From IMG/VR virus record IMGVR_UViG_3300035702_000111, positions 1 through 30,842 of that record: a DNA stretch of 30,842 nucleotides. One strand, written 5' to 3'. The first letter of the stretch is position 1; each line of letters begins with the position of its first letter. This document shows, piece by piece, positions 346 through 30,837 of the stretch. A program made the position numbers and the translations under genes. This DNA is from a virus. The notes under the pieces are model-generated. The model was not told where the DNA came from. It saw only the letters and a program-made list of their open reading frames with translations, and did no database searches.

Positions 346-350
346 TGGTT

Positions 351-1834: not shown

Positions 1835-1848
1835 TTACTGAGGACGAC

Positions 1849-2325: not shown

Positions 2326-2340
2326 TGGGTTGTCTTATCT

Positions 2341-2370
2341 AGCCTCACTTCATGTGGGGCTTCTTTTTCT
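2341..2370 (+). terminator. Rho-independent terminator of the DUF5675 gene
   Basis: AGCCTCAC-TTCAT-GTGGGGCT forms an 8-bp stem with one G-T pair, followed by TCTTTTTCT. It lies 15 bases after the stop codon at 2323-2325. Confidence 0.85.
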
Positions 2371-2387
2371 CTGCATTAATAAAACCG

Positions 2388-2407
2388 ATTACTTATAGTC
2401 AACCGAT
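2388..2407 (+). promoter_or_regulatory. ATTACTTAT motif with AACCGAT repeats
   Basis: ATTACTTAT at 2388-2396 matches copies at 1826-1834 and 9599-9607. Two AACCGAT copies flank it (2383-2389 and 2401-2407, 18 bases apart). ATTACTTAT followed by TCAACCG is also seen at 9599-9618, so the similarity extends beyond the core. This probably marks a promoter or operator for the packaging genes; inference only. Confidence 0.35.
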
Positions 2408-2431
2408 ACTGTATCTATATCGAGAGAGACT

Positions 2432-3450: not shown

Positions 3451-3614
3451 TGTATCTCTGGCTGTTACATCCTGAGTCACCTGGTGAGCGTGTACTGGTT
3501 GTACGGGGATTCTTTGCCCGACTGGTTCGGCCCAAGCACTTTGCCACCCTGGATGAGGTCGAGGCATACCGCCTCTATTGCGTAGGCCTACGTGCAAGAA
3601 GGGGACACGGATGA
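3450..3614 (+). CDS. Small hypothetical protein (54 aa) coupled to the terminase
   Basis: A 54-residue reading frame beginning MYLWLLHPESPGERVLVVRG and ending RARRGHG. It starts on the last base of the previous stop (TGATG at 3448-3452) and its TGA overlaps the terminase ATG (ATGA at 3611-3614). The full use of the gap and both overlaps make it very likely real. It is strongly basic toward the C-terminus, with a hydrophobic N-terminal half. It may serve as a coupling cistron or a small accessory protein. No family is recognised. Confidence 0.65.
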   Translation: MYLWLLHPESPGERVLVVRGFFARLVRPKHFATLDEVEAYRLYCVGLRARRGHG

Positions 3615-11183: not shown

Positions 11184-12353
11184 ATGTCACAGTCCTATAA
11201 CGATCCAGTCGGCGGTACTCCGTCCAACATCGGTACCCAGATCCGTACCGATAGCTACATCAAGCGCGCACTCATTGAGATGCGTAAAGAGCAATACTTT
11301 GGTCAGTTGGCCAACGTAACCAACTTGCCCAAGCACATGGGTAAGAAGATCAAGAAGTACCACTACCTGCCGCTGCTTGATGACGCGAACATCAATGACC
11401 AGGGTATTGACGCCACCGGTGCCACGATCGCTGACGGTAACCTGTACGGTTCCAGCAAAGACGTAGGCTCCATTCCTGGCAAAATGCCGATCCTGTCTGA
11501 GACAGGTGGTCGTGTTAACCGGGTTGGTTTCAAGCGTAAGGAAATTGAAGGTTCCATCGCCAAGTTCGGTTTCTTCGACGAGTACACCCAGGAATCCCTG
11601 GACTTTGATACCGACGCAGAACTGATGATGCACATTAACCGTGAGATGCTGAACGGCGCCAACGAGATGACTGAAGACCTTCTTCAGGTCGACTTGCTGA
11701 ACGCTGCTGGCGTGGTCAAGTTCGCCGGCGATGCTACTACAGACGCTGAGCTGGATGAGGCTGACGAAGTGACTTACGGCGACCTGTTGCGTCTTCAGAT
11801 CGACCTGGACAACAACCGTACTCCGAAGCACACCAAGGTGCTGACCGGTACGCGTATGGTCGATACCCGCACGATCCCGGCTTGCCGTGTGATGTACGTG
11901 GGTTCTGAATTGCAGCCCCTGCTGGAAGGCATGGTGGATCTGCATGGCGATAAGGCCTTTATCCCGGTCGAGAAGTATGCGGCTGGTGGTAATGTCCTGA
12001 CCGGTGAAGTGGGTACCGTTGCACGGTTCCGCGTCATTGTGGTTCCGGAAATGATGAAGTGGGAAGGCGCCGGTGCGGATGCAACCGCGAACGCCACACA
12101 CTTCAAAACAGGCACCAAGTTTGACGTACTGCCGATGTTGGTCGTGGGTGATTCTTCCTTCTCTACTATTGGTTTCCAGACCGATGGTAAGACCGTGAAG
12201 TTCAATATCACACACAAGAAGCCTGGCACTGAAACTGCCGACCGTACGGATCCGTATGGTGAGACTGGCTTCATGTCCATCAAGTGGTACTACGGCTTTC
12301 TGTTGGAGCGTGGCGAGCGTATTGCTTTGGTGAAAACCACAGCACCGATGTAA
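11184..12353 (+). CDS. Major capsid protein (N4 gp56-like)
   Basis: A 389-residue protein, close to the 401-aa N4 coat protein gp56. The N-terminal third contains [40 protein letters not shown] and [13 protein letters not shown] (residues about 28-85), a pattern I associate with N4-type coat proteins. The later [12 protein letters not shown] and [18 protein letters not shown] segments fit the HK97-type fold. It would form the icosahedral shell on the scaffold. The gene follows the scaffold-like gene by 16 bases and is followed by two strong hairpins, so its transcript may be the most abundant of the operon. Confidence 0.88.
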
Positions 12354-13804: not shown

Positions 13805-16060
13805 ATGGGTTGGTTCAGTAGCAAGAAGAAAACCCACGTTAGTACCCAGATATCCCGCGTTGTTGCGGATAATCAGATTCCGGATATGCGTCAGAAGAAC
13901 CTGATTGATTCGGTATTTAAGAACCAGCGTCTGACGCACACCATTGTGAATAATGGGTTGAGTAGCCATGCGTTAAAAGTGGAGCGTGGTTACCGGTACG
14001 CAGCCCGAGGAGATTACGTGTATGGGCCTTCCAACTACAGCATTCTGGATGCGGCCGATGGTAAACAGGCGGTTGAAAACATTATTGAAGCCGAACTGGG
14101 ACAGACCATTCAGTTTGACTACTTTTACTTCACGCCCTTGAACAACCTTCACGCGGGTTGGGAAAAGCTGACTGCCGAGTATGGTTACGACGAGTTCAGT
14201 AACGAAGTCACGGTACTCTCCGCACAACGCGGTAAGAAGACCTGGGTCAAGAATATGGTGGCACACGTCAACACGATCGCCATGCAGTCAGATGTTCCTG
14301 GGGAGCCTGAAATCCTGGCAGACGATGGGACATTGAATGTCTGGGACCGTCACCCACAGGACCGCTACATACCCAACCGGGGAACCGCACCTAAAACGTC
14401 TGTGTGGAAATTCGGTGAGTTGCTAACGGATGGGGTGGAAATTACGTTGGTAGATTCAGCCGGTGTTGAGGACATCTTGTTCTTCGACTTCAGTCAGTAC
14501 GACGACGATCTGGAATGCTTCCACGCCAAGTACCGGTACACAGAGAATGGGAAAAAGAAGACCGGGTATTTTACCTACCAGTACAAGAGCGGAGCGTACC
14601 CCGTACTGGATACGATCCATGATGGAAACCAAGTCACCAACGGGACGTTCCTGCCGGTGGTGCTGTTCCGTCACAACGACGTGAACCGTACCAACCCTTC
14701 CTTGCACGAGACCGAAGAGTACAAAAGCACTGACCAGTTAATGCACTTGATGGGACTGGATTACCAGAAGCTAGGTGACACCATCCATGAGAATCCGGAT
14801 GTAGACAAGCTGGATCAGGCTGCCCTGATGTTTGCTGTACCGGCGAGTACAGCGGATGACGCAGAGAAAGAGTACCTGTTCAAGTTCTTCAACTGGCTCT
14901 ATTTGCAGAGCCCCAACAACCAACAGTACCAAACAGTCGAAGGTGTCTCACACTACCGCCCCGGGCAGGCCATACGCATCAAAGACGCAGACTTCGATTG
15001 CACTTTGAGCTTCGCACAGCTACGGCGCCGCCGGCAGGCGGGGTCGGTCGGTAAGCCCGGGTCGTATCACCAAGAGATTATCCAGGAAACCCGCACACGG
15101 ACGGTCACCCGGAATGTGAGCAACACCCGTGACACTGATTATCAGGAAGTTGAGGAAACCTACACCGTGGATCTCATGCAGTACCGTTTTCAGGTAACGG
15201 CTACGTCATACGACGAGATAATCGTGGACGGGCTCCAACTCCGCTACAACATTTACGATGATAAAAGCGTCACAGTGAACGTCGGCTCCGACAAATTACT
15301 TATCCCCGTGGATTACACCATTGCCCGTACGATGCGGTTTGACCGTAAGGAACGGTTGTACTACCGGTCCATGCACTTTGTTATGAACGCCCGCGTCACT
15401 GAAACGGTGAAGTGGTACGAGAGAGGTATTTTCCAAATCATCCTGTTTGTGGTTGCGGTTGTCATCACCATCCTCTCTCAAGGTACACAGTCATGGACCC
15501 TTGCAGTAGCTGCAGGTACTGAAGCGGTGGTGTTATTAATATTACAGGCCGTCTTGGAGGTACTGATAAGTCAGCTTGTTATATCCAAAGCTTTTGAAAT
15601 AGTGATCAAAGAGCTTGGGTATGAAATAGGGGTAATACTAGCTGTGGTGGCGTTTGTAGTTGCCGGGTATGGCGATTATATAAATGCCGATTGGGCTGCG
15701 TATGCGATCCAGGCTGGTAACAACTTAATGGCTGCTTCCATGACAGATATTCAAAGGGAGGTTGCTGGATACAAAGCGGAATCACAGGAGTTTCAATTAC
15801 AAGCTGAGGAGAAAATGAAGGAGCTGGAAGAGATTGATAACCTATTAAACCAATACGAGTTATTGGATCCACGTTCATTTATTGGGAAGGTGCCTGTTAT
15901 CAATCCCGGGGAATCTCCGGATGCGTTATACGACCGTACTGTGCATGTAGGAAATCCCGGTATTCTGCAATATGACTATATAGAATCGTATGTAGCGATT
16001 AACACGCAACTACCAACTTTTAATGACCTTGTAGGGGATTCTTTTTATGGGCGCATATAA
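13805..16060 (+). CDS. Large virion protein with membrane segments (N4 gp53-like)
   Basis: A 751-residue protein. The start is set at ATG 13805, with AGAGGA six bases upstream; earlier Mets overlap the terminator or the ribosome binding site. The N-terminal 400 residues are soluble and rich in beta strands. Around residues 400-445 is a basic Arg/Thr segment (LRRRRQAGSVGKPG, then ETRTRTVTRNV). From about 538 to 626 come three hydrophobic stretches: IFQIILFVVAVVITILS, a long Ala/Val/Leu segment, and IGVILAVVAFVVAGYG. A coiled coil follows (about 650-690). Membrane segments in a late virion protein fit an ejected protein that builds a channel in the host envelope. It overlaps the next gene by 14 bases. 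Confidence 0.65.
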   Translation: MGWFSSKKKTHVSTQISRVVADNQIPDMRQKNLIDSVFKNQRLTHTIVNNGLSSHALKVERGYRYAARGDYVYGPSNYSILDAADGKQAVENIIEAELGQTIQFDYFYFTPLNNLHAGWEKLTAEYGYDEFSNEVTVLSAQRGKKTWVKNMVAHVNTIAMQSDVPGEPEILADDGTLNVWDRHPQDRYIPNRGTAPKTSVWKFGELLTDGVEITLVDSAGVEDILFFDFSQYDDDLECFHAKYRYTENGKKKTGYFTYQYKSGAYPVLDTIHDGNQVTNGTFLPVVLFRHNDVNRTNPSLHETEEYKSTDQLMHLMGLDYQKLGDTIHENPDVDKLDQAALMFAVPASTADDAEKEYLFKFFNWLYLQSPNNQQYQTVEGVSHYRPGQAIRIKDADFDCTLSFAQLRRRRQAGSVGKPGSYHQEIIQETRTRTVTRNVSNTRDTDYQEVEETYTVDLMQYRFQVTATSYDEIIVDGLQLRYNIYDDKSVTVNVGSDKLLIPVDYTIARTMRFDRKERLYYRSMHFVMNARVTETVKWYERGIFQIILFVVAVVITILSQGTQSWTLAVAAGTEAVVLLILQAVLEVLISQLVISKAFEIVIKELGYEIGVILAVVAFVVAGYGDYINADWAAYAIQAGNNLMAASMTDIQREVAGYKAESQEFQLQAEEKMKELEEIDNLLNQYELLDPRSFIGKVPVINPGESPDALYDRTVHVGNPGILQYDYIESYVAINTQLPTFNDLVGDSFYGRI

Positions 16061-16580
16061 CTTGAATTTTAATACCCCAGGGCCTGCAATGATGCCACGT
16101 CGTATTGCAGCTACCCCGGGTAACACGCCCCTGAACTTGGACTTTATGTCTCAGTTAAATGCAGGCGGTACTAACACACCCAGTTCTTTTTTGAACTTAG
16201 GTACAACATCATCTGTTACCGATCAGGTAATGCAAAACAGTCAATCCCTTATCCCAGGTACAACTTCTAATTTGCCTATGAATGCCGCTGGAGGTGGAGG
16301 TGAAACGGGCATGTTTGACGGCTTCCTGGGTGAAGATGGCTGGGGCAACCTGGCACTGGGTGCAGCTAACGCTGCGATCCAAGGGTACACAGGGTTCAAG
16401 CAACTGGATCTGGTAAAGGATCAACTGGATTTCCAGAAGAAGGCCTTTGAGAAGAACTACGCCGCCCAGAAACAGAGTACCAACACGCAATTAAGAGATC
16501 GACAGAAGCGACGGTACACCGAGAACCCGGGGCACTATGTCAGCCCGGATGAGTACATGTCTCAAAATGGGGTGAAGTAA
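16047..16580 (+). CDS. Small virion protein (N4 gp52-like, ejected)
   Basis: A 177-residue protein beginning MGAYNLNFNTPGPAMMPRRI. N-terminal 95 residues are Asn/Thr/Gly/Pro-rich and probably flexible. A Gly-rich turn then leads to WGNLALGAANAAIQGYTGFK (residues about 100-119) and a basic, Gln/Lys-rich C-terminus. Mass is about 19 kDa, near the 16.5-kDa N4 gp52 that is packaged with the polymerase. The same low-complexity-plus-Ala/Gly-helix design is seen in T7 gp14-type ejection proteins. It overlaps the upstream gene by 14 bases and is followed after one base by the next gene, so all three are co-translated. Confidence 0.6.
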   Translation: MGAYNLNFNTPGPAMMPRRIAATPGNTPLNLDFMSQLNAGGTNTPSSFLNLGTTSSVTDQVMQNSQSLIPGTTSNLPMNAAGGGGETGMFDGFLGEDGWGNLALGAANAAIQGYTGFKQLDLVKDQLDFQKKAFEKNYAAQKQSTNTQLRDRQKRRYTENPGHYVSPDEYMSQNGVK

Positions 16581-16581
16581 T

Positions 16582-18804
16582 ATGCCGATTACCTGGAGAA
16601 ACGTGAACGCCCCCTCCTTCAACGGGGTCTCGGAATCCCTGGCCCAGGCGGGCCAGTCTTTCACCGGTGCTGTGGATGCGCTACAGCAAACCAAGGACAC
16701 CTTTGAAGACGGCCGCACCGACCGAAACACTCAAGCCTTCATGGATCAGATTGCACAGTACCAGTCTCCGGAGGCCTTGGCAGAAGCGCAACAGTCAGGG
16801 GCGATCCAGAAGCTCAGGGATCAGTACGGCGGTAATGGGTTGATCGAGACATCGAAGACCAACGCAGACGCCATGCGTGGCCGGCTGACGGGTCTACGAC
16901 AGCAGGAGACTGCAGATTACGACTACAACCGAACCTTGAATACACGGGCAGACCAGCCGTTCCTTGAACAGATTGGTTCACAGATGTCAGAAATCCCTAT
17001 GGACATGCCACAGGACCAAGCGGCTGCACGTTTAGAAGCCATTCACGCACAGGCTGTTGAAGGGGGTGCAAGTGAACGCGTACTCACTGTATTCAATGAA
17101 AAGAGACGAGACCTCCTGGAAGGTATTGAGGATGAGAACCGGTCTGATGCAACTCATGCCTATAACCTCGAAAGGCGAGGTTGGGAGAAAGGTAATCAAG
17201 CGTATAAACAGAACCAACGCGCACGCACGATTGCACAGCAACAGCGTGAAGATGCTCAACGCGCCCAGATGGATACTTTGCTGGATCAGGAAGAACAGAT
17301 CGTCAATGACTTCACAACGGGCCTGGATACAACGTCACAAGGTGTGTTGAAGGCAGCCGCTGATATAGACATACCCATTGTGAATGGGCGTCCTGTTTTC
17401 TCCGAAGCCACGCCAGAGCAACTGGCTAAATTACAACAGAATACCCAAGGGATGGGTCGTCTATCGTACAAGGACGCTCAGGCTCAGTACGTGGAAGCTC
17501 TGGACGCTGCAGGCATTAAAGGGGAGGAACGTACCAAACGGATGGCAGGCTTCCAGGCGCGTATGGAGGTACCTACAAACCTGTCTCCAAAACGTGAAGC
17601 AGCTTTGCAATCAACATTGGACGCCGGGAAAAAGGAACACGATACGCAACTTGCGCGACTGAAAGAGGACCGTGCGCGTTTCAATCAAAGTAACGGTTAT
17701 GTGGATCTGGACGGTCGTGACCCGAACACCGTCGTAGCCGACTTGCTCCAAGAGATCAACGATGACACTTTTGCCGAAGAAGGTGAGGATGTCGGGATTG
17801 ACTTGTGGGGTCTGTTGAGTAATAGCAAAGGGAACGCACGCGAGAAGATCACGAAAAGTGCGTCACGGGCAGTGTCTGAAGGTATGCCTATAACACTGGA
17901 AGACGGAAGCACCTCCAGCGTTCGTGCAACAGAAGGGATGCTTAGGCAGGCCTTTGTGGCGGCTAAGAGAGCAGAGAATCCGGCAAAAGTATTTGACTCG
18001 GTTCTCCGTGACATACTCAGTCGTCCGGGTAACATTGCACAATGGGAAAGTAACCAGAATTCGATTGAGCGCTTCCGTCAGCAAGAAGACAAGCTGAATT
18101 CGGACTATTTAAGATCTGTTGCTTTTCACAAGAATCTGGCAAATTACGAAGACGGGATCCCTACGGTGGATCTGCCTGCGTTTAAGGCAAGGCTCGATCG
18201 TGCCCTGAAACCGGATATGACGGAAAAAGAAGTAAAGACCACGATGAAAGAGGCCGCTGAATCCATTACAGGCAAGGGGAACGCAAGCCCAAAAAATTCT
18301 GAGCCTGGTACACAGTCAGCAGATGATGCAACGACTGCTAGAATAAACGAACTGGAAGCCGCATTAACCAAAGCTCAAAAGATGGTAGCAGATGGAAATA
18401 AGTCTGGATCAGAATCAGCAGGCCGCAATATAGGAGAGTTACTTAAAGGTCTAGCTACGGCCACTGATCCCACTGACCCAAATAACATTATCCGGGAAGG
18501 TTACTCTAATATAGCAGATTGGACAGGGGCTGCATTACGAAGCACGGGAGATAAGATCCCGTTTTCATATAAAAGAGATGAGAACGGTAAAATAGTAGAT
18601 ACTAACTCAGTCAGCGAGGTTTTAGATGCTAAGTCAACTGAGCTTGTGTACGAAGACGTACCCAACATGATTCAAAGCCTAATGGACGCTGGTGTTTACG
18701 GCGCTAAAGGAACTATGCAACGTATCCAAAATTACTTAAAAAGGTCTGAGGCTAATAATAAAGACTTCGAACGTGGTTTAATGGAGGCTATGAAAGGCAA
18801 ATAA
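16582..18804 (+). CDS. Large internal virion protein (N4 gp51-like)
   Basis: A 740-residue, highly charged helical protein beginning MPITWRNVNAPSFNGVSESL. Opening residues resemble other podovirus internal proteins, with an Asn/Ser/Phe-rich head followed by helix. Most of residues 40-330 and 460-590 are Glu/Gln/Lys/Ala-rich helix and likely coiled coil. No lytic transglycosylase motif is visible. It lies directly upstream of the giant polymerase, as gp51 does in N4, and starts one base after the previous stop. Likely role: internal core or ejection protein that helps package or inject the polymerase. The last 170 codons are more AT-rich than the rest. Confidence 0.62.
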   Translation: MPITWRNVNAPSFNGVSESLAQAGQSFTGAVDALQQTKDTFEDGRTDRNTQAFMDQIAQYQSPEALAEAQQSGAIQKLRDQYGGNGLIETSKTNADAMRGRLTGLRQQETADYDYNRTLNTRADQPFLEQIGSQMSEIPMDMPQDQAAARLEAIHAQAVEGGASERVLTVFNEKRRDLLEGIEDENRSDATHAYNLERRGWEKGNQAYKQNQRARTIAQQQREDAQRAQMDTLLDQEEQIVNDFTTGLDTTSQGVLKAAADIDIPIVNGRPVFSEATPEQLAKLQQNTQGMGRLSYKDAQAQYVEALDAAGIKGEERTKRMAGFQARMEVPTNLSPKREAALQSTLDAGKKEHDTQLARLKEDRARFNQSNGYVDLDGRDPNTVVADLLQEINDDTFAEEGEDVGIDLWGLLSNSKGNAREKITKSASRAVSEGMPITLEDGSTSSVRATEGMLRQAFVAAKRAENPAKVFDSVLRDILSRPGNIAQWESNQNSIERFRQQEDKLNSDYLRSVAFHKNLANYEDGIPTVDLPAFKARLDRALKPDMTEKEVKTTMKEAAESITGKGNASPKNSEPGTQSADDATTARINELEAALTKAQKMVADGNKSGSESAGRNIGELLKGLATATDPTDPNNIIREGYSNIADWTGAALRSTGDKIPFSYKRDENGKIVDTNSVSEVLDAKSTELVYEDVPNMIQSLMDAGVYGAKGTMQRIQNYLKRSEANNKDFERGLMEAMKGK

Positions 18805-18877: not shown

Positions 18878-21800
18878 ATGAGCGAATTTAATCTTGATCC
18901 TTACTTTGCTGCACAAGATGAAGGCGTAGAACTGCAAGAAGATCCCATAAGTAAATGGGAAACCCTCAACTTTAATACCACTACCAAGCAAGCCGAACTC
19001 TCTCAGAAAGCTGAAGAGAAGCGCCGTGCTTTGCACGCACTCACCCGGCAAGTAGACCAGGAAAAAGCTGCGTTTGATAAAAGCTGGGTAGGTCAGGCCG
19101 ACCTGGATCCGGACAGCGTTGCCGGCGGCGCTGTTAACCTGGCTGCATCCTTTACGACCGGCACCGGCCGTATTGCAGGTGAACTCGTCACACTGCCTTC
19201 GGATACGTATTCCGCAGCACAAAACTTTCTGCTACCGACCGGCGTGCGTGAAGCCTATTCACGTATCCAGCAAGGCACGGCCACTCCGGAAGATCATGCA
19301 CTCATGGATCAATCCAATATCGGTGAGACTGCGTCTGCAGAACCAAAAGACCCTTCAGGTCCTACCTGGGGCTCACGTATCGAAAAGATGCAGGACGCTC
19401 GGCATTGGGCTGAAGAGGTCTCAGAGACATTCGACCTGTATGGTAATGTTGAAATGAGTAACCGTCAGGAGCTGTCCCGTAAATTGGCAGAGGGTTCTGC
19501 AAACGGTTTGTCTGCCTTGAGAGACGCGGCTAAAGCGTACGATGACAATGACCTGTCCGGTATGTTGTCAGACGGTGTGTATGGCATTGCGTCTTTGTTG
19601 GTGAACGCAGGGCCGGCCCTTTTAGAAAACCCTGGTGCGGTGGCGGAATACACCGTAGAGATGGCTCCGCAAATAGCGTCCGCCATGGTAAGCCGAGGTT
19701 TGGTTACGCCACAGATAGCCGGTTACGCCGCTAAAACGTACCGTGACGGTGTCCTGAAATACCAGGAAGAAAATGGTGGTGCGTTACCTTCCAAAGATAA
19801 AAACATGGAAATGGCGACACACGCGGTCAGTTTGTTTGTGGCTGAGAAGCTGGGTCTTGAGTCCATTGGCCGTACCGGCAAGCTGTTTAACAAAGGTTCT
19901 AAGAGTAAACCTACCCCTAAGAAGAATGCCGTAGATACCCCGCCAAAAGCCAAGAAAGAGGCTAAAGGTGTTGTGGGTATTGCTGGGTCGTCCGCCAGAG
20001 GCTTTGCCGGTGAGTCAGGTACAGAGACTTGGCAGACCTATGCAGAGGGTGTTGCTGGTTACGATCCTCGAAGCGCTGAGCAGATCTATGAAGGCGGCGT
20101 GATTGGTGGTGCTGTGGGTGGAACCATTTCAGGTGCCGGTAAGACGGTCAGTGAAATAGATCGTGCGGTCAAAGGTACCGACAAAGCCAAGGCTGATACA
20201 GAGGCAGAAATCGTTGACATGAAAGCGGCGACTGAGTCTGGTGATATCAGTGCCTATACCGATAAAAAGTCTCCTAAATACGATTTGAACAGGGCTGCGG
20301 CTGTGCTGAAGGCCCGTCAAGAAAATGGGGATACGAAGGCGGTAGATGAGATCAACAAGGTGTACCGCAGAGCTGAGAAAGATGTAGCGGTTATGGAAAA
20401 CACCGCACGCGTCTATACCCCTGAAGGTAAAGCGGAGAATGAGCGGAAGCTTGCAGAACAGACCCAGGCACTCAACGAGGCCACGGACCCTGCTGAGAAA
20501 TCCAAGCTACAGAAGGCTATCCAGACCACCAAGATGTTCATTGATGCAAATGGGGATAAGAAAGGCAAAAAGGATACCGACGCTACGTTAGCCAGGGCAA
20601 AAGAGACATTTAAGAACGTGTCCAAGGTCCAGGAAGAAGTTACCGCTGAAACAGTGGCGCCTAAAGACTCTGAAGAAGACCTGGCGACGTTGAAGACCAA
20701 AGCCAACCTGACAGAGGGCCTGGATACAGAAGTTTCCTCTGAGGAGCGTCAGGCTGCGGTACAGAAGCTGACTACCCAGACCATGTCCAGTCCGTCGATT
20801 CTGAGTTCAACCGAGGCGGATACACTGGTCAATGATACGACCAATGGTTTGAACGACTCCCAGCGTGAATACCTGCGGGAGTTCAGCCGTGCCCAGGAAT
20901 CCCTGCAAGGGGTATCCGGGACCAACAGTGATATTTTCAAAGGGCGTGATAGCTACCGGGGCATCCCTACGTACCGAAACCTCATCCAATCGGCCATGAA
21001 GGACAAGGACACGGAGGCTGTGCAGGGTTACATGGGTGACCTGCAGCGGTTTGCCCGGGATCACCAGAGCAAAGCCAATGCAGTAGAAGCCGCGTTCAAT
21101 CAATGGCAGACCACCAAGCAACCGCAATCGGTTGTACGGGGTAAGACCGCAGGTACTTGGGCAGTTTCAAAAGAGCCTATGAGTAAATCGGCGGTAACGG
21201 CTAATGGCGGTCTGACGATTGACGGTATGAGCAGCAATCTGGTTCAGGCCATTAAAGCTGAAAGCAAAGCCTTGAACGCAGCCGGTATTGAAATGACCGC
21301 TATGTCCAAGATGACCGCGCCTACCCGCAAGCCTGCCTCACAGAAAGGAACGTCCAATGAATCGACGCCCCCAAAGACTCCGGAAGCAAAAACGCCAGCA
21401 GATAATGTCGCTGAGACACCAACGCAAAAACCAGTTACTGACCCTGCACCCGACGAAGCCGGTACAGAAAGCGTAACTACCTATGACGGTTGGGCCAAGG
21501 CCAACGCTGGCAAGCGTATTGCGATCCAGTACCCCAAAAGCAAAACACCGTTTACGGTTACAGTCAGCGAAGAGACTGAGGTTGTTACAGAGGGGAATGA
21601 AGGTCAACGGGTTGCATTCACCGGTGTCACCAGTAAAGGCAAGAAAGTCACGTTTACTGAGGCTGATGTAACGAACTACATGGGGTCAACCGAGATCGAG
21701 CCAGGTAGCCTATCTAATATCCGGGGAGAGAGCGGCCAGCAGCCGCAGGCTGCTGAGTCGGCACCGCTTACACCCAATGAGCCCGTCAGTGAAGACGTTG

Positions 21801-24800
21801 TTTCTCCAGAAGTGTCGGAAGAGAGCGATGGGCTGGCTATTGAAGAAGTGGCTAAAGCCCCTGGTTTACTGTCTGCGATGCAATTTGAAGGTGATCGTCC
21901 TGTCGCGGATCAGAGTAACTTCAAGTCAGTCAATCTGGCTCAGGCGTATTACATACAAAGTGCCGGTAAAGAAGAGGGCGGCGGTACACGTCCGTTGGTG
22001 GATTATGACCGCTTCCTGACCGCTGTACGGGCAAAGATTGAAGTGGCAAACGACTATTTCAATACCCCTAAAGACCAGGATGAGGAAGTCACCTCTGCCC
22101 AAAAACGGGCGTTAGAGACGTTTGCGGAGAAGGCTGCCAAGTGGATGCCTACCCTTGACAAGATCATGCGTGACTACGACAAGCTCCCTGCAGACGCATC
22201 GTGGCACTGGGATGTGATCCAGTACTTCAGGGATCCTGAGACCGGTCAACTACCGGAGAATATGAAAGGGGCCATTGCGTATGCGGCCTGGACCTTTCTG
22301 GTGGAGTCGGAAGCTGCCAGCCCGATCATGTCCGACGATGACATTCGGACCATTATAGGGCTGGACGACCACGAGCAAGTACCGCCTGCTGCTAAACAGG
22401 CATTACAGTTTGCAGGTACACGCGCCAACATGATGGTCAACAATGTGGGGCCACGTGCCCGTAAGGTCTTGGGTATAAAAGCGGTAGCGTCGGCACCGTT
22501 GGATGCAGAGCCTAAGCTGGATGCAGCACTGGGCAGTTACGCTCAAGGCTTGTTGCTCGAACTGGGTCTCATTGAAAGACCAAAAATTGAATACGAGGGG
22601 TTTGATCAGGACACCTCGTTTGTCCGCATCAAGCGGGAAGATAATAAAGCCCGGGACGCTATCCCTGAGATTGCAGAGATCGGTCGTGTGAGCCGGGGTA
22701 CCCAGAACTACCTGGATAAGTTGATGGGCAGTGAGGCCGTGGTTCAGGAGCCTGTGTTCGAGACACCCTACTTCACACAGAAAACCACCAAGGGTACAGA
22801 CTCACGCATTCCTGAGAACATGGCTGATATGCAACAGATCAACACATCCCGGGGCTGGAAGGTTCGGCCTTGGATGAACGGTCTGTGGCAAGCACTGACG
22901 GATGAAACCCAAGAAGCGGCGGCAGGTGTTGTAGACACTGAAGGTGAGCACCGCCTGATCCAGAGTAGCCTGGAAGGCAGTAACGCCGGGTTGATCCGTG
23001 AGATCAAACAGTTCCGGGATTTCCTGGATACCGGTGTTCGCGGGAACTACGAGAAAAAGTTCTTCCTGCACCCGTCCGTATGGGTCATGCAACGCGCCGG
23101 CTACAAGAACACCATCAACCCGCAGAACAGCAAGGTTCAGCGTGAGTTGATCGGTATGGCCGATTGGTCTGTGCGTATCCCTACGGACTTCCGAGACCCT
23201 TTGAACAAGTTGTTCCGTCAGAATGTGGCCATGGGTCTGGGTATCAAAGCCGATAAGCTGAAGCAAACAGAAACCATCAAACAGCTTAATAGTAAGTTAA
23301 AGCACCCTAAGATCCGTACCGGTTTGGAAGCCATCAAAAAACAAGTCAGAGAGGAAGAACTGACGGAAGGTGACCAGGCGAATATCCGAGATGCAGTGGC
23401 CAAAGGCGGTGAGGGTATGCAATCCCTGAGTGCCTTGCTTTCTTATGCTCGGATGGAAATGGCGCGGGAACCTAAAAACAAGGCCGTTGATTTTGATACC
23501 GACATGGACATGATGGAAGTGGACGGTGTCACCAACGGGCCTATGTTGACGTTGCTGATGTTAGGTGCAGCCCAGTCCACCAACGGGTTGTTTACGTTCC
23601 TGAATAAAGGTGGGATGTACCAAGCAGGTTCTCCTTACAAGAACTTTGTGGATTATAAGAAGCAGGGCAATACCGACCTGTACGAAACGGCGATCGGTGA
23701 GACGGTTAGGGCCATTGAAACAGGCTTACAAAAGAAGCCACAACGCCGGCCTGCTTTTGAAGCGGTTGAGTATTTCAAGGGCGGTGTGGGGAGTATCTTT
23801 GATACTGCAACCAATGCGATTGGACGTGCTGCCCGTAACGTCATTAAGACACCGTTGACCGGGATGATGTTTGGTCAGTCTTTGAACGCTGGGGTGTCCT
23901 CCATGTTTGAAGAACTGACTGAGGACATGTACCGCAAAGTCTCACGGATCAACAAAGACAACTACACGACCGCTCAGAAAAAGGAAGAGTTGGCTGAGTG
24001 GGCGGCTGCCGTTAATACGTTGATATCCAATTACAAGCCTGAACGTTCTTTGGAGATTCCGGCAAACCCTACAATGAAGTGGGCCTTGAATTTTGAGTTC
24101 AGTAAAGAGCAAAAAGCGGCGATGCGTCGTTCATTTGCCGGTACGCGTAAGGACAACGCCGGCACCTTCGGTGCGGCTGTAACAGCCGCTATGGAAGACC
24201 AGTTCAGTGTGTTCCTGGAAAATCGTCAGGTGTTGAACCAAGCGGCCCAAGCATCGGCCTTGTTGTACATCGAGGTGCGCGATCACTTAATTGAGCTGCG
24301 GACAGAGGAGAAGATAGCCGCCGGTGATATAGCGACCACCACTAATCAAAAAGGTGAGCGGGTTGTCTTACAGGATCTGAATGCCTTGGATATGCAAGCC
24401 ATTGACGAACAGTTGGCTCCCATGGCGCCTGTGGCACACAGTGCGTTGTCTAGCGAAGTAAACGACCTAGGTGCTGGTATTTACCTGCCTAAGACTAAAC
24501 CGAAGCTGGATTTTGCAAACACCACGTACCGGCAGAATATTAAATACTCTAAGGACGTGGGTGGATCCAAGGGGATCAGTGCAACGGCCTTTAAAAAGGT
24601 CATTGATAGCCCAGGTGTCCGCTCGTTAATCATGATGATTCACTCATCGGATGCGGCTATTTCAGCCAAGGCGTATTCGCAGTTGGCTGCGTTGAACATT
24701 CACGATGCCAACGGTCTGAGTATTGTGAATCTGGTGGCCGGGGCACGTAACCTTAACGAAGCCACATATAACGTGATGTTGAACTACTCGATTCCACTGG

Positions 24801-27800
24801 AACTGAAAAACACACTGGATCGTACGCTTGTCGGTGTCCACGGTATGTTGGACATGGTGAAAGATTCTCCTGCGATACAGGCGAAGCTCAAGACCGTGAT
24901 CGAAGGTGAGTTTGAAACGGTGTACCCCAAGAACGGGAAACCGTATGAAAAGCAGCTCTCCGGTATCCGGCTGTCTAAAAAACAACGTAAAGCTGCAGAG
25001 TTCCTGGGGACGGATCCTCTGACGTACTTGCTGTCGGAAGTCTATAAGACTGCGTACACCAGTGAGTACCGCAAGCTGGATGGTATGGGTCAAATGGTCT
25101 ATCTGGATCAGTACGCTCAGGAGGGCGGGGAGTTTGACGTCACACAGGAACTACGTGACCAAGCCAAGCGCATGAAAGAAGATCTGGAGATTGAAGCCCG
25201 AGGAGGTAAGGATGCAGAGGGGAATCTCCAGTCGGACAAGCTGGTTGTCAAAACAAAACAACAAGCCGAGGAATTGTACGCGGCTGTGGCGGGCCGCCAG
25301 GCCAAGCCACAGACACGCGACACAGAGATAAGCTCAGCCGAATATGGTGCAGCCCTCAAAGCTATTCTGGGTGAGATGGATAAGAAGATCCAAGATCACT
25401 ATACGGAAACGGGCGAGAAAGATTCGGTAGCTCAAAAAGCCCGGAATACCACTGCGACCTTGGCCAAGTATCTGAACCGTGGTTATTCCCTGGATGCCGC
25501 TTTGAAGGGTCTGTTCCCTCAAGAAGATTCAGCGGGTAAAAAGCTGGCCTGGAAACGTCGGTTGGCTGCTCAGGTAGAAGATCGGTCACTTGCGGTGTCC
25601 GATCCACGAGGTGCTCCTCACAGCGTTATTATGAACGTGATGCAGTTCATGACAGACAACGAGATGGACCCGGGTGGTCAGGTTGTCTCTCTTCTGGAGA
25701 CCATGTATCAGGATGGGCTGTATCTGAAATCGGCTATGAAGCAAATATCTCAAGTCGATGCAGCGATTGCCTTTGAACGCATAAAGACCGTGTATAACAG
25801 TCACCGTGCAACGCCTTATGGTGAGCTTGGTTCGGCCGTTGTCGAGGCAGATCAAGACCTGGATACGTTCCTGCGTAGCAAGTCCAATATGACTGCAGGG
25901 GATGTAATGGGTTACCTGAAAAAGCGATATGCCAATCCAAAGACCAATCAGGCACGGTTCTACCGTCTGATCCTGGGTCAGGTAAGCAGGACTGTTCCAG
26001 TGGATCTGCCAGTACGTTATATCACGCGGGAGAACGTGGATTTCCCTGCTCCGGAACGCAACGTCACATCGGCACGGGGTTGGTATGAGCCGGCTGCGGA
26101 TAACGAGCACATCGGTATCAAGAGCCCGGACTTTATCCATTCGGCTGTACAGCCAGAAGTCCTGTTGCACGAGCTGGTTCACCGTGCCCTGGCAGGGATT
26201 ACCCACAAAGCACAGTCTCTGCCTAAGAAAGCCCCGGAAGCTAAGTTGGTGGCGGATCTGGAAAGTCTACGTGAAGCGTCGATCCAGTGGCTTGATAGCC
26301 AAGGTGACGCTGGTTTGAAAGCTCGACACAGCGAAGCCCTGGTCAACGTACACGAGTTTCTGGCGTGGGGCTTGACCAACGCACGCTTCCAGACCGAAGT
26401 ACTGTCACAGGTCACAGTAGAGGCCACACAGCGTCGTAATGGATTCATAACGGCCATGAAGCGGTTCATCAATGTGGCGACTGAACTGTTGCTGGGTAAG
26501 ACCGTACGTTGGCAAGAGCAAGGGAAAACCATGACCACTGCAATGGCTGAGTTGTTGAGCCGTTCGGGTGGGTTGTATGCCGCTGCCCGTAAAGGTGGTG
26601 AGACGTACTATAAAGGGGAAGCCTTGCGTAGCCAACAGAGTGATGGGTCAACACCGGTAGAGCAGTACAGCACAACTCAGATCTTCGATGGTTTGGCCAA
26701 CATGCAACGGGCACCGTTGGATGCCGACTACGAGGCTGAGTTGCGGGGTGTATTGACCTCATTGGTGTCGAAGCTCCACGGACCCTATGGCACCAATAAA
26801 GAACTGGTGCGTGAGCGAGCCAATTACAGTACGGCGGATGTGTTCACCGAAGCCTTGATGGGCAACATGCCCTTTATGTCTGAGGTACTGGGTAAGCCCC
26901 TGGCGATCTCCGAACAAGAAGCCTTTGTTATTGAGCAGGTCGAAGCCACTACCCGGGCGTCCTTGAACGCGTCTACGATGGCGTACCGAGAATTGAACAA
27001 GTTGTACCGTGAGACTCGGGAACGTCTGAGTGCCCGGGATTTTGTAGAAGGTGATTGGGCTACTGCGTCCGCTGCGGAGAAGCAAGCTGCACAAGAGAAC
27101 TTCGAGTTTATATTCCGTCCGGAAAAGACCGAAGGCGGTACGTCGAACCATCTGAGCAAGTTCGCGGCCATGGCCATTGCGTACAAACCCTTACGGGATC
27201 TGATGGATCAACAGACTGCACCGTACGCACGGACAGGCCGTGTAATGTCCCTAGCGGGTATTGCACGGGCGGTGTTCGACACCCTGATGAATGTGTTGAC
27301 GGGTAAGTTGACCAAGACCTTTGAAGGTCAGAAGGCTAATGAGAAGCTGGATCGCTTGGTGGATCAGTTGGTTAGCGTTGAGGCAAAGCGTCAGGCGTCA
27401 CTGGCACGTAGGCGGGTGAACGGACCTAATATGATGACGGCTGCCGTTCACAAAGCCAATGAGTCTATCCGTGCAGGGGCCAGTAAAGCCGCCCATTCAT
27501 CGGTGGTTAAAAACAGTCGAAGCGGGTTTGTACGGGCAGCCGGTGTCACCGTACGGGTGGTTGCCGGTGACCGGGTAGAAGAAGTGTTCAGCGGTATCCA
27601 GAAGCTGCGTAACAAGCTGCACAGCGATAAAGAAGGTGTGGTTGCCAGTTGGGTGACGGAGATCCGCGGTGCAAACGACACCAACAAAGAAGCCTACGAG
27701 TTTGCTCGGATGGTGAATAAAAACGAACAATACCGTCTGTTGACGAAAAACCGGACAATCCACGATGTACTGGGATCGTTCGACGAAGACGGGAAGTACC

Positions 27801-30154
27801 TGACCGAAGAGGACACCGTTGCACTGACACGGACGGTCCTGCGGCCCGACCTGTCTGCTTTGGCTAAAGAGCATGATATGGAGGAACTGGTTGGAATGGT
27901 CCGTGATGAAGGTCAACGGGAACGGATGATTGCGGATTATGAACGTCAGTTGTTGAAGCTGGATCGAGGCCGTGCCACCTACTGGATCACACAGGGTCGG
28001 GATCTGGGGTGGACAATGGTGACAGGTGCTGTGACCAGTGTTAACCACATGAACAACGCGCATAACATTATTCAAGAGTTTGGTACCCCGAACGCTAACA
28101 GTGTGGCGGCAACGGTGGCAGAGCAGGCGATACCCCTACTGGATCGACTGACGTCCTTGTATGCCCTACGGAATACCCCGAAAAAGGATCGGGATACTGC
28201 CGGAGAGGTAATGACCCGGGAGTCTCGTCGGGGTGATGCCAGCGGTGTCAGCATGATCGTTAAGTTGCACCAGAAGCTAAAAGACGATGCGTTGGATCAA
28301 CTGTTCCAGGGTAACCCCACACACTTCAACAAGGGGTACACCAAGGAAATTTACAACCCGTATAAAGAGGTGGTCATTGCCAGTGGTATTGAGGGAACCA
28401 ATCTGGAACGTATGGGAGCACGTCGGAGTGAGCCGCTGAGATCCGATCCACAGGATCCCACACGAGGCGAGGTTAAGCGTATCTATACGATTGACGACGG
28501 TGGGTTGAAGCAGTGGGTGACCGGGACGTTCTCTTTTACCGGGACACGGCCAAAAGGGACACGCATCCACAGCGGGATTACCCGTGCGGATAACGGTGGG
28601 TTTGTTCATCTGCAGAACAAACAAATGACGCAGGACGTACAGGCGGATAAGGCTATGGAAGTGGTTGGCTTGTATTCCCGAGGTTTGGGGTATGACCCAG
28701 CCAAGTCCAATAAAGAATACATGGCACCCTTGTTGAGTAGTCAGGGTGATGTGGCCGACTACCGGTACCTGATGCACACCAAAACGCGGGATACCTTGCT
28801 TGAGCGGGATAACCGTATGGAGGAGATCCTGGGAGCCATGGCCGCTAACGTGGTTGACCGGGTGAATACCCGCGAGACAAACGGCCTGTTGGTACAAGCC
28901 TTGTACGACCAGTACCAAGCTGAAAAAGCAGAACAGCCGCAAGGCTTTATCGAAGTCAGCGAGAACAGTACAGACCCTGAGATACGGGAGACTTACCGTC
29001 TGCTGCCGGACGATACGAAAAAAGCCATTGTAGCTACCTGGGGACGTCCGGTCATGATGGTCCGTAAGGATCTGTTCATGATGCACTTTGGGTATCGGAA
29101 GAAGAGTATTGCGGATCCTTTCAGTAAAGCACCGCGGTCTGAGCGCAAGGACAATCCAGATGCCCGTGGGATCGCAGAAGAGGTGTTTGTTGTTGTGGCT
29201 GAAGCTTTACTGGGTAAGAAGGCTGCCCTGCGTCTGCGTCGTGCAGAGGATGTCTGGCAGGAGCTGGTTCGGATGATCAAAGACTTCCTGGTCATCAAGA
29301 ACATGTTCACGTTGATTGGTAACATCCTATCCAACATCTCTGAGCTGGTATTGGCCGGTGTTCCGATGAAAGACATTTTGAAAAATCAGCGTATTGCAGT
29401 GGAAGGGTTGATGGCGTACGAGAAGGATTTCAGGAAGGTAGAGACGTTGAAAATGATGCGCGATATCAACCATCTGGATCGGCCACTGGCTGCGATTGAG
29501 GATGAGATAGCTTTACTGGAAGACGCCTTGGCACGCAACCCCGTTCGGGAGTTGGTAGACGCTGGCTTGTTGCAGACCATTGTGGAGGATGTTGAGGTAT
29601 TGGACGACCAGTTTTCCTATAAGTCCAAACTGACTCGTGCACTGGACAGCAAAACACAATGGCTACCCAAGGCGATTAAAGACGCGGGTAAGTTTGCGGT
29701 TATGAGTCACGACACCGATTTGTACAAACTGTTATACAAAACCACGCACATGAGTGACTTTGTGGCGCGGTACACGTTGTACGAACACGCGATAAATCGG
29801 GATGTGAATCCGCTGTCCAAAGAGGATGCGATACAGTTTGTGGAAGAGGCGTTCGTTAACTACGACACGCCTACACACAAGCTGGTGCAGTACCTGAATG
29901 ATATGGGAATCATCCCCTTCACCAAGTACTACATCCGTATCCAGAAGATACTGTTCCGGTTGTACCGGGAGAACCCGGCACGGGCCTTGATGATGGTGTT
30001 GTTCAGTAACACCCTGGAAATGGTACCGACCATTGTCGAGTCGGGTTTCTGGAACAAGCTGAACGGCAACATGATAAAAGGCGGTGCGTTTGAATTTGGG
30101 GACGCGTTAACAGAAGCGTTGCCTATTAACACAGCCTTGCAATTCACGAGGTAA
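18878..30154 (+). CDS. Giant virion RNA polymerase (N4 gp50-like) with zincin motif
   Basis: A 3758-aa (about 410 kDa) virion RNA polymerase; N4 gp50 is about 3500 aa. Residues 1-1000: helical, with Gly-rich hydrophobic stretches (GGVIGGAVGGTISGAG, about 406-421), a Pro/Thr/Lys linker (about 811-866) and a small beta-rich module (about 868-935). Residues about 1000-2090: T7-type single-subunit polymerase. Motif A is EVDGVTNGPM (Asp1549; N4 has EADGVTNGPI). Motif B is RNVIKTPLTGMMFG (Arg1653, Lys1657, Phe1665). Motif C is LNIHDANG (Asp1943). The A-C spacing of 394 matches 392 in N4. The T/DxxGR region reads QRAGY (1405-1409). Then HELVH (His2431-His2435), a metallopeptidase motif, with HEF at 2492-2494. 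The C-terminal 1200 residues are helical and should serve packaging. Weak ribosome binding site behind a hairpin. Confidence 0.95.
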   Translation: MSEFNLDPYFAAQDEGVELQEDPISKWETLNFNTTTKQAELSQKAEEKRRALHALTRQVDQEKAAFDKSWVGQADLDPDSVAGGAVNLAASFTTGTGRIAGELVTLPSDTYSAAQNFLLPTGVREAYSRIQQGTATPEDHALMDQSNIGETASAEPKDPSGPTWGSRIEKMQDARHWAEEVSETFDLYGNVEMSNRQELSRKLAEGSANGLSALRDAAKAYDDNDLSGMLSDGVYGIASLLVNAGPALLENPGAVAEYTVEMAPQIASAMVSRGLVTPQIAGYAAKTYRDGVLKYQEENGGALPSKDKNMEMATHAVSLFVAEKLGLESIGRTGKLFNKGSKSKPTPKKNAVDTPPKAKKEAKGVVGIAGSSARGFAGESGTETWQTYAEGVAGYDPRSAEQIYEGGVIGGAVGGTISGAGKTVSEIDRAVKGTDKAKADTEAEIVDMKAATESGDISAYTDKKSPKYDLNRAAAVLKARQENGDTKAVDEINKVYRRAEKDVAVMENTARVYTPEGKAENERKLAEQTQALNEATDPAEKSKLQKAIQTTKMFIDANGDKKGKKDTDATLARAKETFKNVSKVQEEVTAETVAPKDSEEDLATLKTKANLTEGLDTEVSSEERQAAVQKLTTQTMSSPSILSSTEADTLVNDTTNGLNDSQREYLREFSRAQESLQGVSGTNSDIFKGRDSYRGIPTYRNLIQSAMKDKDTEAVQGYMGDLQRFARDHQSKANAVEAAFNQWQTTKQPQSVVRGKTAGTWAVSKEPMSKSAVTANGGLTIDGMSSNLVQAIKAESKALNAAGIEMTAMSKMTAPTRKPASQKGTSNESTPPKTPEAKTPADNVAETPTQKPVTDPAPDEAGTESVTTYDGWAKANAGKRIAIQYPKSKTPFTVTVSEETEVVTEGNEGQRVAFTGVTSKGKKVTFTEADVTNYMGSTEIEPGSLSNIRGESGQQPQAAESAPLTPNEPVSEDVVSPEVSEESDGLAIEEVAKAPGLLSAMQFEGDRPVADQSNFKSVNLAQAYYIQSAGKEEGGGTRPLVDYDRFLTAVRAKIEVANDYFNTPKDQDEEVTSAQKRALETFAEKAAKWMPTLDKIMRDYDKLPADASWHWDVIQYFRDPETGQLPENMKGAIAYAAWTFLVESEAASPIMSDDDIRTIIGLDDHEQVPPAAKQALQFAGTRANMMVNNVGPRARKVLGIKAVASAPLDAEPKLDAALGSYAQGLLLELGLIERPKIEYEGFDQDTSFVRIKREDNKARDAIPEIAEIGRVSRGTQNYLDKLMGSEAVVQEPVFETPYFTQKTTKGTDSRIPENMADMQQINTSRGWKVRPWMNGLWQALTDETQEAAAGVVDTEGEHRLIQSSLEGSNAGLIREIKQFRDFLDTGVRGNYEKKFFLHPSVWVMQRAGYKNTINPQNSKVQRELIGMADWSVRIPTDFRDPLNKLFRQNVAMGLGIKADKLKQTETIKQLNSKLKHPKIRTGLEAIKKQVREEELTEGDQANIRDAVAKGGEGMQSLSALLSYARMEMAREPKNKAVDFDTDMDMMEVDGVTNGPMLTLLMLGAAQSTNGLFTFLNKGGMYQAGSPYKNFVDYKKQGNTDLYETAIGETVRAIETGLQKKPQRRPAFEAVEYFKGGVGSIFDTATNAIGRAARNVIKTPLTGMMFGQSLNAGVSSMFEELTEDMYRKVSRINKDNYTTAQKKEELAEWAAAVNTLISNYKPERSLEIPANPTMKWALNFEFSKEQKAAMRRSFAGTRKDNAGTFGAAVTAAMEDQFSVFLENRQVLNQAAQASALLYIEVRDHLIELRTEEKIAAGDIATTTNQKGERVVLQDLNALDMQAIDEQLAPMAPVAHSALSSEVNDLGAGIYLPKTKPKLDFANTTYRQNIKYSKDVGGSKGISATAFKKVIDSPGVRSLIMMIHSSDAAISAKAYSQLAALNIHDANGLSIVNLVAGARNLNEATYNVMLNYSIPLELKNTLDRTLVGVHGMLDMVKDSPAIQAKLKTVIEGEFETVYPKNGKPYEKQLSGIRLSKKQRKAAEFLGTDPLTYLLSEVYKTAYTSEYRKLDGMGQMVYLDQYAQEGGEFDVTQELRDQAKRMKEDLEIEARGGKDAEGNLQSDKLVVKTKQQAEELYAAVAGRQAKPQTRDTEISSAEYGAALKAILGEMDKKIQDHYTETGEKDSVAQKARNTTATLAKYLNRGYSLDAALKGLFPQEDSAGKKLAWKRRLAAQVEDRSLAVSDPRGAPHSVIMNVMQFMTDNEMDPGGQVVSLLETMYQDGLYLKSAMKQISQVDAAIAFERIKTVYNSHRATPYGELGSAVVEADQDLDTFLRSKSNMTAGDVMGYLKKRYANPKTNQARFYRLILGQVSRTVPVDLPVRYITRENVDFPAPERNVTSARGWYEPAADNEHIGIKSPDFIHSAVQPEVLLHELVHRALAGITHKAQSLPKKAPEAKLVADLESLREASIQWLDSQGDAGLKARHSEALVNVHEFLAWGLTNARFQTEVLSQVTVEATQRRNGFITAMKRFINVATELLLGKTVRWQEQGKTMTTAMAELLSRSGGLYAAARKGGETYYKGEALRSQQSDGSTPVEQYSTTQIFDGLANMQRAPLDADYEAELRGVLTSLVSKLHGPYGTNKELVRERANYSTADVFTEALMGNMPFMSEVLGKPLAISEQEAFVIEQVEATTRASLNASTMAYRELNKLYRETRERLSARDFVEGDWATASAAEKQAAQENFEFIFRPEKTEGGTSNHLSKFAAMAIAYKPLRDLMDQQTAPYARTGRVMSLAGIARAVFDTLMNVLTGKLTKTFEGQKANEKLDRLVDQLVSVEAKRQASLARRRVNGPNMMTAAVHKANESIRAGASKAAHSSVVKNSRSGFVRAAGVTVRVVAGDRVEEVFSGIQKLRNKLHSDKEGVVASWVTEIRGANDTNKEAYEFARMVNKNEQYRLLTKNRTIHDVLGSFDEDGKYLTEEDTVALTRTVLRPDLSALAKEHDMEELVGMVRDEGQRERMIADYERQLLKLDRGRATYWITQGRDLGWTMVTGAVTSVNHMNNAHNIIQEFGTPNANSVAATVAEQAIPLLDRLTSLYALRNTPKKDRDTAGEVMTRESRRGDASGVSMIVKLHQKLKDDALDQLFQGNPTHFNKGYTKEIYNPYKEVVIASGIEGTNLERMGARRSEPLRSDPQDPTRGEVKRIYTIDDGGLKQWVTGTFSFTGTRPKGTRIHSGITRADNGGFVHLQNKQMTQDVQADKAMEVVGLYSRGLGYDPAKSNKEYMAPLLSSQGDVADYRYLMHTKTRDTLLERDNRMEEILGAMAANVVDRVNTRETNGLLVQALYDQYQAEKAEQPQGFIEVSENSTDPEIRETYRLLPDDTKKAIVATWGRPVMMVRKDLFMMHFGYRKKSIADPFSKAPRSERKDNPDARGIAEEVFVVVAEALLGKKAALRLRRAEDVWQELVRMIKDFLVIKNMFTLIGNILSNISELVLAGVPMKDILKNQRIAVEGLMAYEKDFRKVETLKMMRDINHLDRPLAAIEDEIALLEDALARNPVRELVDAGLLQTIVEDVEVLDDQFSYKSKLTRALDSKTQWLPKAIKDAGKFAVMSHDTDLYKLLYKTTHMSDFVARYTLYEHAINRDVNPLSKEDAIQFVEEAFVNYDTPTHKLVQYLNDMGIIPFTKYYIRIQKILFRLYRENPARALMMVLFSNTLEMVPTIVESGFWNKLNGNMIKGGAFEFGDALTEALPINTALQFTR

Positions 30155-30417: not shown

Positions 30418-30837
30418 TTAGCCAAATAGGCTGCGGCTTTCTTTGGTGGGTTTGGTTTCCGTGCTGTCATTGACCGACTCGGTTTTTGCGTCGGGTTCAA
30501 AAGGAGGCTCAGTCGAGGCTGGCTCAGGTTCCTTTTTGGGTTCTTCAGCAGGAGCTTCCGTCACTTCCGGAGCAGAAGGTTCTTCTTCTGGTTCAGGGGA
30601 TGGCTTGGTTTTCTTCTTGGGATCGCTGTTGGTGGGCTTTGTCGCTTTACGTTTCACCGGCTCGGGTGGGACGACTGCTTCGTTACCCAGGATAACTTCC
30701 GCTGTGATTGAGGTACCACCTTTACGGGCGACGGTAAACTCGACGTCCTGTACCGGAGTGGCAATGCCATTTTTGGCAACGTAATCGCGGATCGCTTCAG
30801 TGATGCTGTCTTGATCCAGAATGACTTGTACTTTCAT
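30418..30837 (-). CDS. Hypothetical protein with Pro/Glu/Lys-rich tail (139 aa)
   Basis: A 139-residue protein. Residues 1-55 form a compact alpha/beta domain: MKVQVILDQDSITEAIRDYV, then a strand VEFTVARKGG and TSITAEVILG. Residues 58-139 are a low-complexity Pro/Glu/Lys/Thr tail ending in SRSLFG. The domain-plus-acidic-tail layout recalls small phage nucleic-acid-associated proteins, but I do not recognise the family. The ATG is at 30835-30837; only five bases upstream are in the window, so the ribosome binding site and promoter are outside. Confidence 0.7.
   Translation of the reverse strand: MKVQVILDQDSITEAIRDYVAKNGIATPVQDVEFTVARKGGTSITAEVILGNEAVVPPEPVKRKATKPTNSDPKKKTKPSPEPEEEPSAPEVTEAPAEEPKKEPEPASTEPPFEPDAKTESVNDSTETKPTKESRSLFG

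Follow-up and report, generated by a model that had tools for sequence, protein, structure and literature searches.

Virion RNA polymerases (vRNAPs) of the family examined here are known from phages LIT1, LUZ7 and PEV2 (Migulavirinae) and from Littlefixvirus, and phage N4 provides, as gp50 and its mini-vRNAP (residues 998–2103), an enzyme with the same fold and catalytic motifs. Passages of two papers describe these proteins as free of cysteine (PMC2784036 for N4; PMC3715699 for LUZ7 and LIT1/PEV2). The second of these, a paper on LUZ7, LIT1 and PEV2 (Ceyssens et al. 2010), writes the canonical motif B of single-subunit RNA polymerases as Rx3Kx7YG, and a supplement legend in it contains the term 'Y678F', which we take to refer to those three phages; a Phe at this position was therefore already in print for relatives of the phage described below.

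Sugar discrimination in T7 RNA polymerase is classically ascribed to Tyr639, and the Phe mutant of this residue is in wide use for making modified RNA. As set out in parts of PMC11617373 and PMC13286181, Tyr639 senses the 2' group of the nucleotide, His784 hydrogen-bonds the 2'-OH, and Gly542 gives room at a position where DNA polymerases carry a bulkier residue such as Glu (PMC11617373). The papers disagree on the contact made by His784: a passage of PMC4551944 places it in the minor groove of the hybrid, and in a homology model of human PolRMT (excerpted from PMC4750701) the His lies on the 1' side and the Tyr on the 2' side. T7 Y639F, in which His784 is retained, accepts nucleotides with 2'-F or 2'-NH2, and the further exchange H784A lets in bulkier groups (both in passages of PMC4551944 and PMC13286181).

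The DNA analysed here ('the window') is a 30,842-base stretch of IMG/VR record IMGVR_UViG_3300035702_000111 that carries the virion genes of an N4-type phage. Its 3758-aa ORF is an N4-type (Schitoviridae) vRNAP: like Schitoviridae vRNAPs, which are about 3400–3700 aa long, it matches the phrog_2206 'virion RNA polymerase' profile over the full length (E 0; aa 62–3753 on profile positions 14–3402 of 3406), it has no cysteine among its 3758 residues, and it contains the ExDGxxxG motif (employed in a passage of PMC10654107) together with T7-like motifs. The features of the gene are as follows.

18878..30154, + strand: virion RNA polymerase gene (3758-aa ORF; phrog_2206 profile match)
22325..25150, + strand: catalytic domain as modelled, aa 1150–2091, with a single-subunit RNA polymerase fold (AlphaFold2 and fold search)
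23117..23143, + strand: stretch in the place of T/DxxGR, NPQNSKVQR, with Lys1419 and Arg1422 (both invariant in aligned sequences with Phe at column 1665)
23516..23539, + strand: motif A, EVDGVTNG, with catalytic Asp1549 and with Gly1554 at the T7 Gly542 column (space for the 2'-OH; alignment)
23834..23875, + strand: motif B (O helix), RNVIKTPLTGMMFG, aa 1653–1666 (translation; helix at model residues 501–515)
23870..23872, + strand: Phe1665 codon TTT, at the T7 Tyr639/N4 Tyr678 column (translation, alignment)
24641..24643, + strand: His1922, at the T7 His784 column (IHSSDA against T7 VHSQDG; alignment)
24695..24715, + strand: motif C, NIHDANG, with catalytic Asp1943 (alignment)

Register and fold of motif B

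Translation of positions 23822–23875 (+ strand) gives GRAARNVIKTPLTGMMFG, in which the motif starts at aa 1653 and has Arg1653, Lys1657 and Phe1665 as named in a preliminary description of this DNA; where the canonical motif has Tyr eight residues past the Lys, the window has Phe1665. The N4 motif named there for comparison, RGIAKNPLTITIYG, is present in N4 gp50. The central claim of that description, that Phe1665 aligns with N4 Tyr678 and T7 Tyr639, is upheld by sequence, by the register of the catalytic motifs and by the fold. The aligned N4 Tyr is residue 1675 of gp50, which is Tyr678 in mini-vRNAP numbering, and Lys670, Asp559 and Asp951 of mini-vRNAP fall into register as well. When T7 gp1 was added automatically to the alignment, Tyr639, His784, Gly542, Asp537 and Asp812 were placed on Phe1665, His1922, Gly1554, Asp1549 and Asp1943, respectively. 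An artefact or misalignment is ruled out by the agreement of T7 and N4 at four motifs and by the presence of Phe in relatives; a sequencing slip is likewise unlikely, since Phe is also found in the near relatives L048, L049 and L026 and in 53 further sequences of the first set described below. Two alignment column screens for a Tyr elsewhere that could replace Phe1665 found none.

The segment aa 1150–2091 was modelled with AlphaFold2 from the window sequence together with 40 IMG/VR relatives (mean pLDDT 90.5, pTM 0.88). When the single domain was compared by sequence with solved structures, no match emerged at E 0.01. A fold search with the model returned seven N4 entries at ranks 1–7, the best of them mini-vRNAP 3c46_A (Z 38.0, rmsd 4.9, 816 aligned residues), followed by T7 RNA polymerase (1s77_D, Z 25.1) and mitochondrial RNA polymerases. 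In the model, Phe1665 (model residue 516) lies directly past the O helix (501–515), and we infer that it may contact the sugar.

The right-hand fold and O helix are shared with family A DNA polymerases. A gate of the family A type is ruled out by the retention of Gly1554, with no bulky residue such as Glu at that position; the Gly kept at the T7 Gly542 column points to an enzyme that would be built for acceptance of the 2'-OH.

Distribution of Phe and its coupling to His

We tabulated the residue at column 1665 in N4 gp50 and other Schitoviridae polymerases, as the preliminary description had proposed. Searches for near DNA relatives of positions 18878–24900 among phage records found none, and a first single-sequence IMG/VR scan gave no confirmed relatives. 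Among 22 named phages, hand-picked from ranked lists of 365 matching records, Phe is present in LIT1, LUZ7, 98PfluR60PP and Photobacterium phage TEMp-D1, and Tyr in the other 18; PEV2 has no row under that label in the alignment. The Phe-bearing motif B of LIT1, LUZ7 and 98PfluR60PP reads RN/KVIKxPLTAMMFG, and the LIT1/LUZ7-type enzymes, which are 29–33% identical to the window over the domain, resemble it further in having His at the T7 His784 column and HDA in motif C. N4 differs from the window at all three places, with Tyr678, with Gly at the His784 column (residue 1923; G926 in mini-vRNAP numbering) and with FDG rather than HDA.

A first set of 103 readable rows (window included), its IMG/VR members gathered by alignments that end before motif B, comprises 56 with Phe, including LIT1 and LUZ7, and 47, N4 among them, with Tyr. 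This count was taken from 105 distinct rows plus the frame-broken L051, read from separate frames; L122 has neither column, and L026, which was found only by a Phe-biased pattern scan containing PLT[AG]MMF, was omitted here and is counted only in the 55/55 and 57/57 tallies below. A later set, collected chiefly on the N4 side and in distant lineages, added 83 rows (77 of 160 loci were discarded because they duplicated earlier rows or other ones); 2 of the 83 have Phe and 81 have Tyr. The searches for relatives used stretches ahead of motif B, and three of them yielded the best 80 of 154, 90 and 145 relatives, so that the share of Phe describes sequences near the queries rather than the whole family. 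Within this sampling, Phe is frequent across one large section of the family and rare elsewhere. Phe as a feature of the window phage alone is therefore ruled out: the preliminary description was right about the residue, and its framing as the property of one phage gives way to a clade-wide state.

The T7 His784 column showed a second regularity. In the first set, His is present in 55/55 Phe rows with both columns readable (one of them L026), and the 46 readable Tyr rows have His (19), Gln (17), Gly (8), Ala (1) or Thr (1). Both Phe rows of the later set also have His, and its 80 readable Tyr rows divide into Gly (58), Gln (10), Ser (6), His (4), Ala (1) and Asn (1). Pooled, His accompanies Phe in 57/57 rows and Tyr in 23/126, the column being absent from L100 and L060 (Phe) and L121 (Tyr) in the first set and from L153 (Tyr) in the later one. 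The difference persists when near-duplicates are collapsed at 50% identity (24/24 Phe rows against 12/30 Tyr rows). As a control, we considered the 649 columns with enough letters: in 544 of these the majority residue of the Phe rows occurs in less than half of the Tyr rows, and only 1665 and 1922 among the 544 are invariant in Phe rows (Trp1430 narrowly fails the cut, occurring in exactly half of the Tyr rows). Gly at column 1554 is found in all Phe rows read and in 46/46 Tyr rows. The suggestion in the preliminary description that discrimination may depend on a different residue thereby gains a clear candidate in His1922. Among open-licence papers we found none on the extent of Phe or on its coupling to His, and the passages of PMC10654107 and PMC10925440 that bear on these polymerases discuss neither.

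To place these counts on a phylogeny, we built a first tree of 101 rows and 715 columns, with both motif regions blanked and L122, L100, L060 and L121 omitted, and a larger tree of 137 rows, in which only every fifth of the 58 Tyr/Gly rows was kept and L153 was omitted. A clade of 63 rows (SH-aLRT 91; 98 for its 64-row version in the larger tree) unites the window, LIT1, LUZ7 and Littlefixvirus and consists of 54 Phe and 9 Tyr rows, with the window on a separate deep branch together with L048, L049, L026 and L051. Tyr appears at about five places within this clade (L051, L124 with L131, L085, the L056 group and L073), and at two of them, L124 with L131 and L085, Gln replaces His. Two further Phe/His rows, L127 and L279, fall outside the main clade with unsure placement: in the larger tree L127 joins L279 outside (join support 25; L270 lies inside), and in an AU test a position of L127 inside the clade stands unrejected (p 0.062). 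In each tree, numerous long branches come together.

A Pagel-type fit preferred correlated over independent change (LRT 16.0, 4 df, p 0.003), with the same result from another optimiser, and in a run of 20,000 simulations of independent change only 1 of the 1165 with similar margins lacked any Phe/non-His tip. The fewest Phe/Tyr changes number 7 on either tree, and independent-pair sign tests, with about 2 to 3 informative pairs, were not significant (median p 0.5 and 0.25). Most Phe rows belong to one clade, so shared history accounts for part of the Phe–His pattern, and the coupling depends on few independent events.

These data bear on the view that Tyr and Phe are nearly interchangeable and that Phe is the frozen accident of one ancestor, with no functional meaning. 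The two residues' codons differ by one base, and the roughly five separate occurrences of Tyr within the clade agree with easy exchange. Against it, column 1665 holds exclusively Phe or Tyr in 103/103 rows of the first set (L026 also has Phe) and 83/83 of the later one; pairwise identity between Phe rows falls as low as 16%, from which we conclude that the Phe state is old and has been retained; the rate of change from Phe to Tyr is estimated at about 0.12 per unit of average column change; and L127 and L279 have the same Phe/His pair outside the main clade (with the reservation about L127 given above). In addition, the second, gp16-like T7-like polymerase of LIT1 keeps Tyr and His (RSDIKTATMTHFYG, HSIDA), as does N4 gp16, so that the Phe state in LIT1 belongs to its virion enzyme. 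We consider a frozen accident quite unlikely. In the window enzyme the N4-type ribose site takes a clade-wide, His-associated form, which the legend of one paper had already mentioned.

Sugar selectivity at the Phe/His/Gly site

The three sugar-site residues of the window enzyme, Phe1665, His1922 and Gly1554, are those of the laboratory mutant T7 Y639F at the corresponding columns (wild-type T7 being the sequence aligned); the window state differs from the mutant in being natural, in belonging to the virion-polymerase family and in being known from sequence. We believe the best explanation, to which we assign a probability of about 0.53, is that this ribose site is a natural counterpart of Y639F, with lowered sugar selectivity and a dependence on His1922. 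In such a site His1922 would touch the 2'-OH and Gly1554 would leave space for it. The enzyme would still produce RNA, with a preference for rNTPs over dNTPs or 2'-altered NTPs below that of its Tyr-bearing relatives. Once the Tyr hydroxyl is gone it would lean on His1922, and loss of the His would then not be tolerated; we propose that this is why Phe occurs exclusively with His, and Tyr with His, Gln, Gly, Ser, Ala, Thr or Asn. The frequent absence of His from Tyr rows fits two partly redundant contacts. By analogy, reduced sugar discrimination is likely, and we regard relaxed sugar choice as the better bet because the T7 mutant with the same Phe639 and His784 accepts altered 2' groups. The legend of Ceyssens et al. 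(2010; PMC3715699) points in the opposite direction, in that Y678F is said there possibly to help discrimination against dNTPs.

The main rival holds that discrimination between rNTPs and dNTPs is normal, with His1922, Gly1554 and changes in the pocket taking over fully, and that Phe was selected because of a different function at the tip of the O helix, for example translocation or, in vRNAPs, the plug/motif-B-loop switch. Other roles for this region are described in print: T7 Tyr639 also acts in translocation (in a passage of PMC11617373), and the N4 motif-B loop refolds upon promoter binding (in literature passages on N4). The presence of His1922 in every Phe row read would suit full compensation, and other columns, polar and hydrophobic, are enriched along with Phe. 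A strict screen (residue in at least 95% of Phe rows and in less than 40% of Tyr rows) returned Leu1557, Leu1601, Phe1753, Ala1790 and Arg2093 beyond 1665 itself, and a wider screen for polar residues (90% of Phe rows, less than 60% of Tyr rows) returned 14 columns, including His1922, Thr1661, Thr1963, Ser1971 and a Ser at column 1926.

The candidates for such compensation differ in how closely they follow Phe. Thr1661, in motif B four residues past the Lys (nt 23858–23860), occurs in 54/56 Phe rows against 23/46 Tyr rows, the latter being evenly split between Thr (23) and Met (23); Ser1971 occurs in 54/54 against 24/46, Thr1963 in 49/54 against 9/46, and Ser at column 1926 (nt 24653–24655) in 51/54 against 5/46. 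Many Tyr rows thus have Thr1661 or Ser1971 as well, and at 1926 the window carries Ala. T7 Y639F keeps His784 and yet takes altered 2' groups (PMC4551944 and PMC13286181, in the passages cited above). Compensation by His1922 or by the Thr/Ser columns is possible from the sequences, and compensation so complete as to restore normal discrimination we hold to be a serious but doubtful alternative.

If the site is relaxed, its looseness might itself be an adaptation, with the injected polymerase making mixed RNA/DNA chains or primers, as the preliminary description had imagined, or tolerating altered nucleotides of host defence. The match of all three sugar-site residues to the relaxed T7 mutant would suit this idea, as would the Tyr/His state of the gp16-like polymerase of LIT1, by which Phe is not general to the T7-like polymerases of that phage. 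The N4 vRNAP is also said to be responsible for both early transcription and DNA replication (in a passage of PMC2784036). A consideration on the other side is the supply of substrate. Pools of rNTPs are larger than those of dNTPs, which limits the use of dNMP even by a relaxed enzyme. We regard such an adaptation as very unlikely, and mixed RNA/DNA primers as speculation. A broader scenario, in which an old and large clade delivers a naturally relaxed vRNAP leaning on one His, in which early transcripts or primers carry measurable dNMP, and in which the loosened site is under selection, perhaps through sensitivity to host-made altered nucleotides or through the start of replication, seems to us unlikely.

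For the preferred reading, a natural Y639F-like site, the clade offers practical material. It combines a natural and long-kept Phe, so far always with His, with a Tyr that has re-emerged in several places, and thereby provides natural pairs for studying how the sugar is checked; such pairs could address the redundancy of the two contacts and what the phage gains or pays. Natural polymerases with a possible tolerance of 2'-altered nucleotides can also be drawn from this clade.

Neighbouring genes and individual relatives

Profile searches that gave names to window proteins named none as a gp16-like polymerase. The following genes surround the vRNAP gene.

3578..6232, + strand: large terminase ORF, 884 aa
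6919..7344, − strand: dUTPase gene (phrog_135, E 9e-53), between the packaging genes and the portal gene and on the opposite strand
7410..9551: portal gene (profile match)
11184..12353: major head protein gene (profile match)
16047..18804, + strand: pair of genes (177 and 740 aa) that precede the polymerase gene, the first matching phrog_2646 (unknown function) and the second weakly matched
30421..30837, − strand: match to RusA-like Holliday junction resolvases (E 3e-7), directly past the polymerase gene and on the opposite strand

By position, the genes for the 177- and 740-aa proteins appear to stand where N4 has its ejection-protein genes gp52 and gp51 (150 and 644 aa), whose operon is described in a passage of PMC12633501. 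The large terminase ORF contains matches to LAGLIDADG_3 (E 2e-9, aa 402–453) and Hom_end (E 8e-5) within aa 392–453 (nt 4751–4936), and an intein-splicing profile also matches the ORF weakly (E 0.17); the ORF probably carries an intein.

Several relatives have features of their own. N4 (L002) is atypical: N4 and its nearest Tyr/Gly lineage have no T7-like His784 and have FDG or YDG in motif C, and many other lineages keep the T7-like residues. L051, a Tyr/His row with motif B at about position 3798, is 72% identical to L048 (Phe/His) over the fragment compared, and in the contig its polymerase gene is broken across reading frames, whether through error or through decay. The group of Klebsiella phage Pylas (L015, L210, L213, L215 and L217) has YSG after the motif B position and a Glu in place of the otherwise nearly fixed Asp three residues past the His784 column. 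Finally, the polymerase domain of the record labelled Photobacterium phage TEMp-D1 (L004; PP852687.1, marked UNVERIFIED) is almost identical to that of the P. aeruginosa phage LIT1, a similarity that may reflect mislabelling of PP852687.1.
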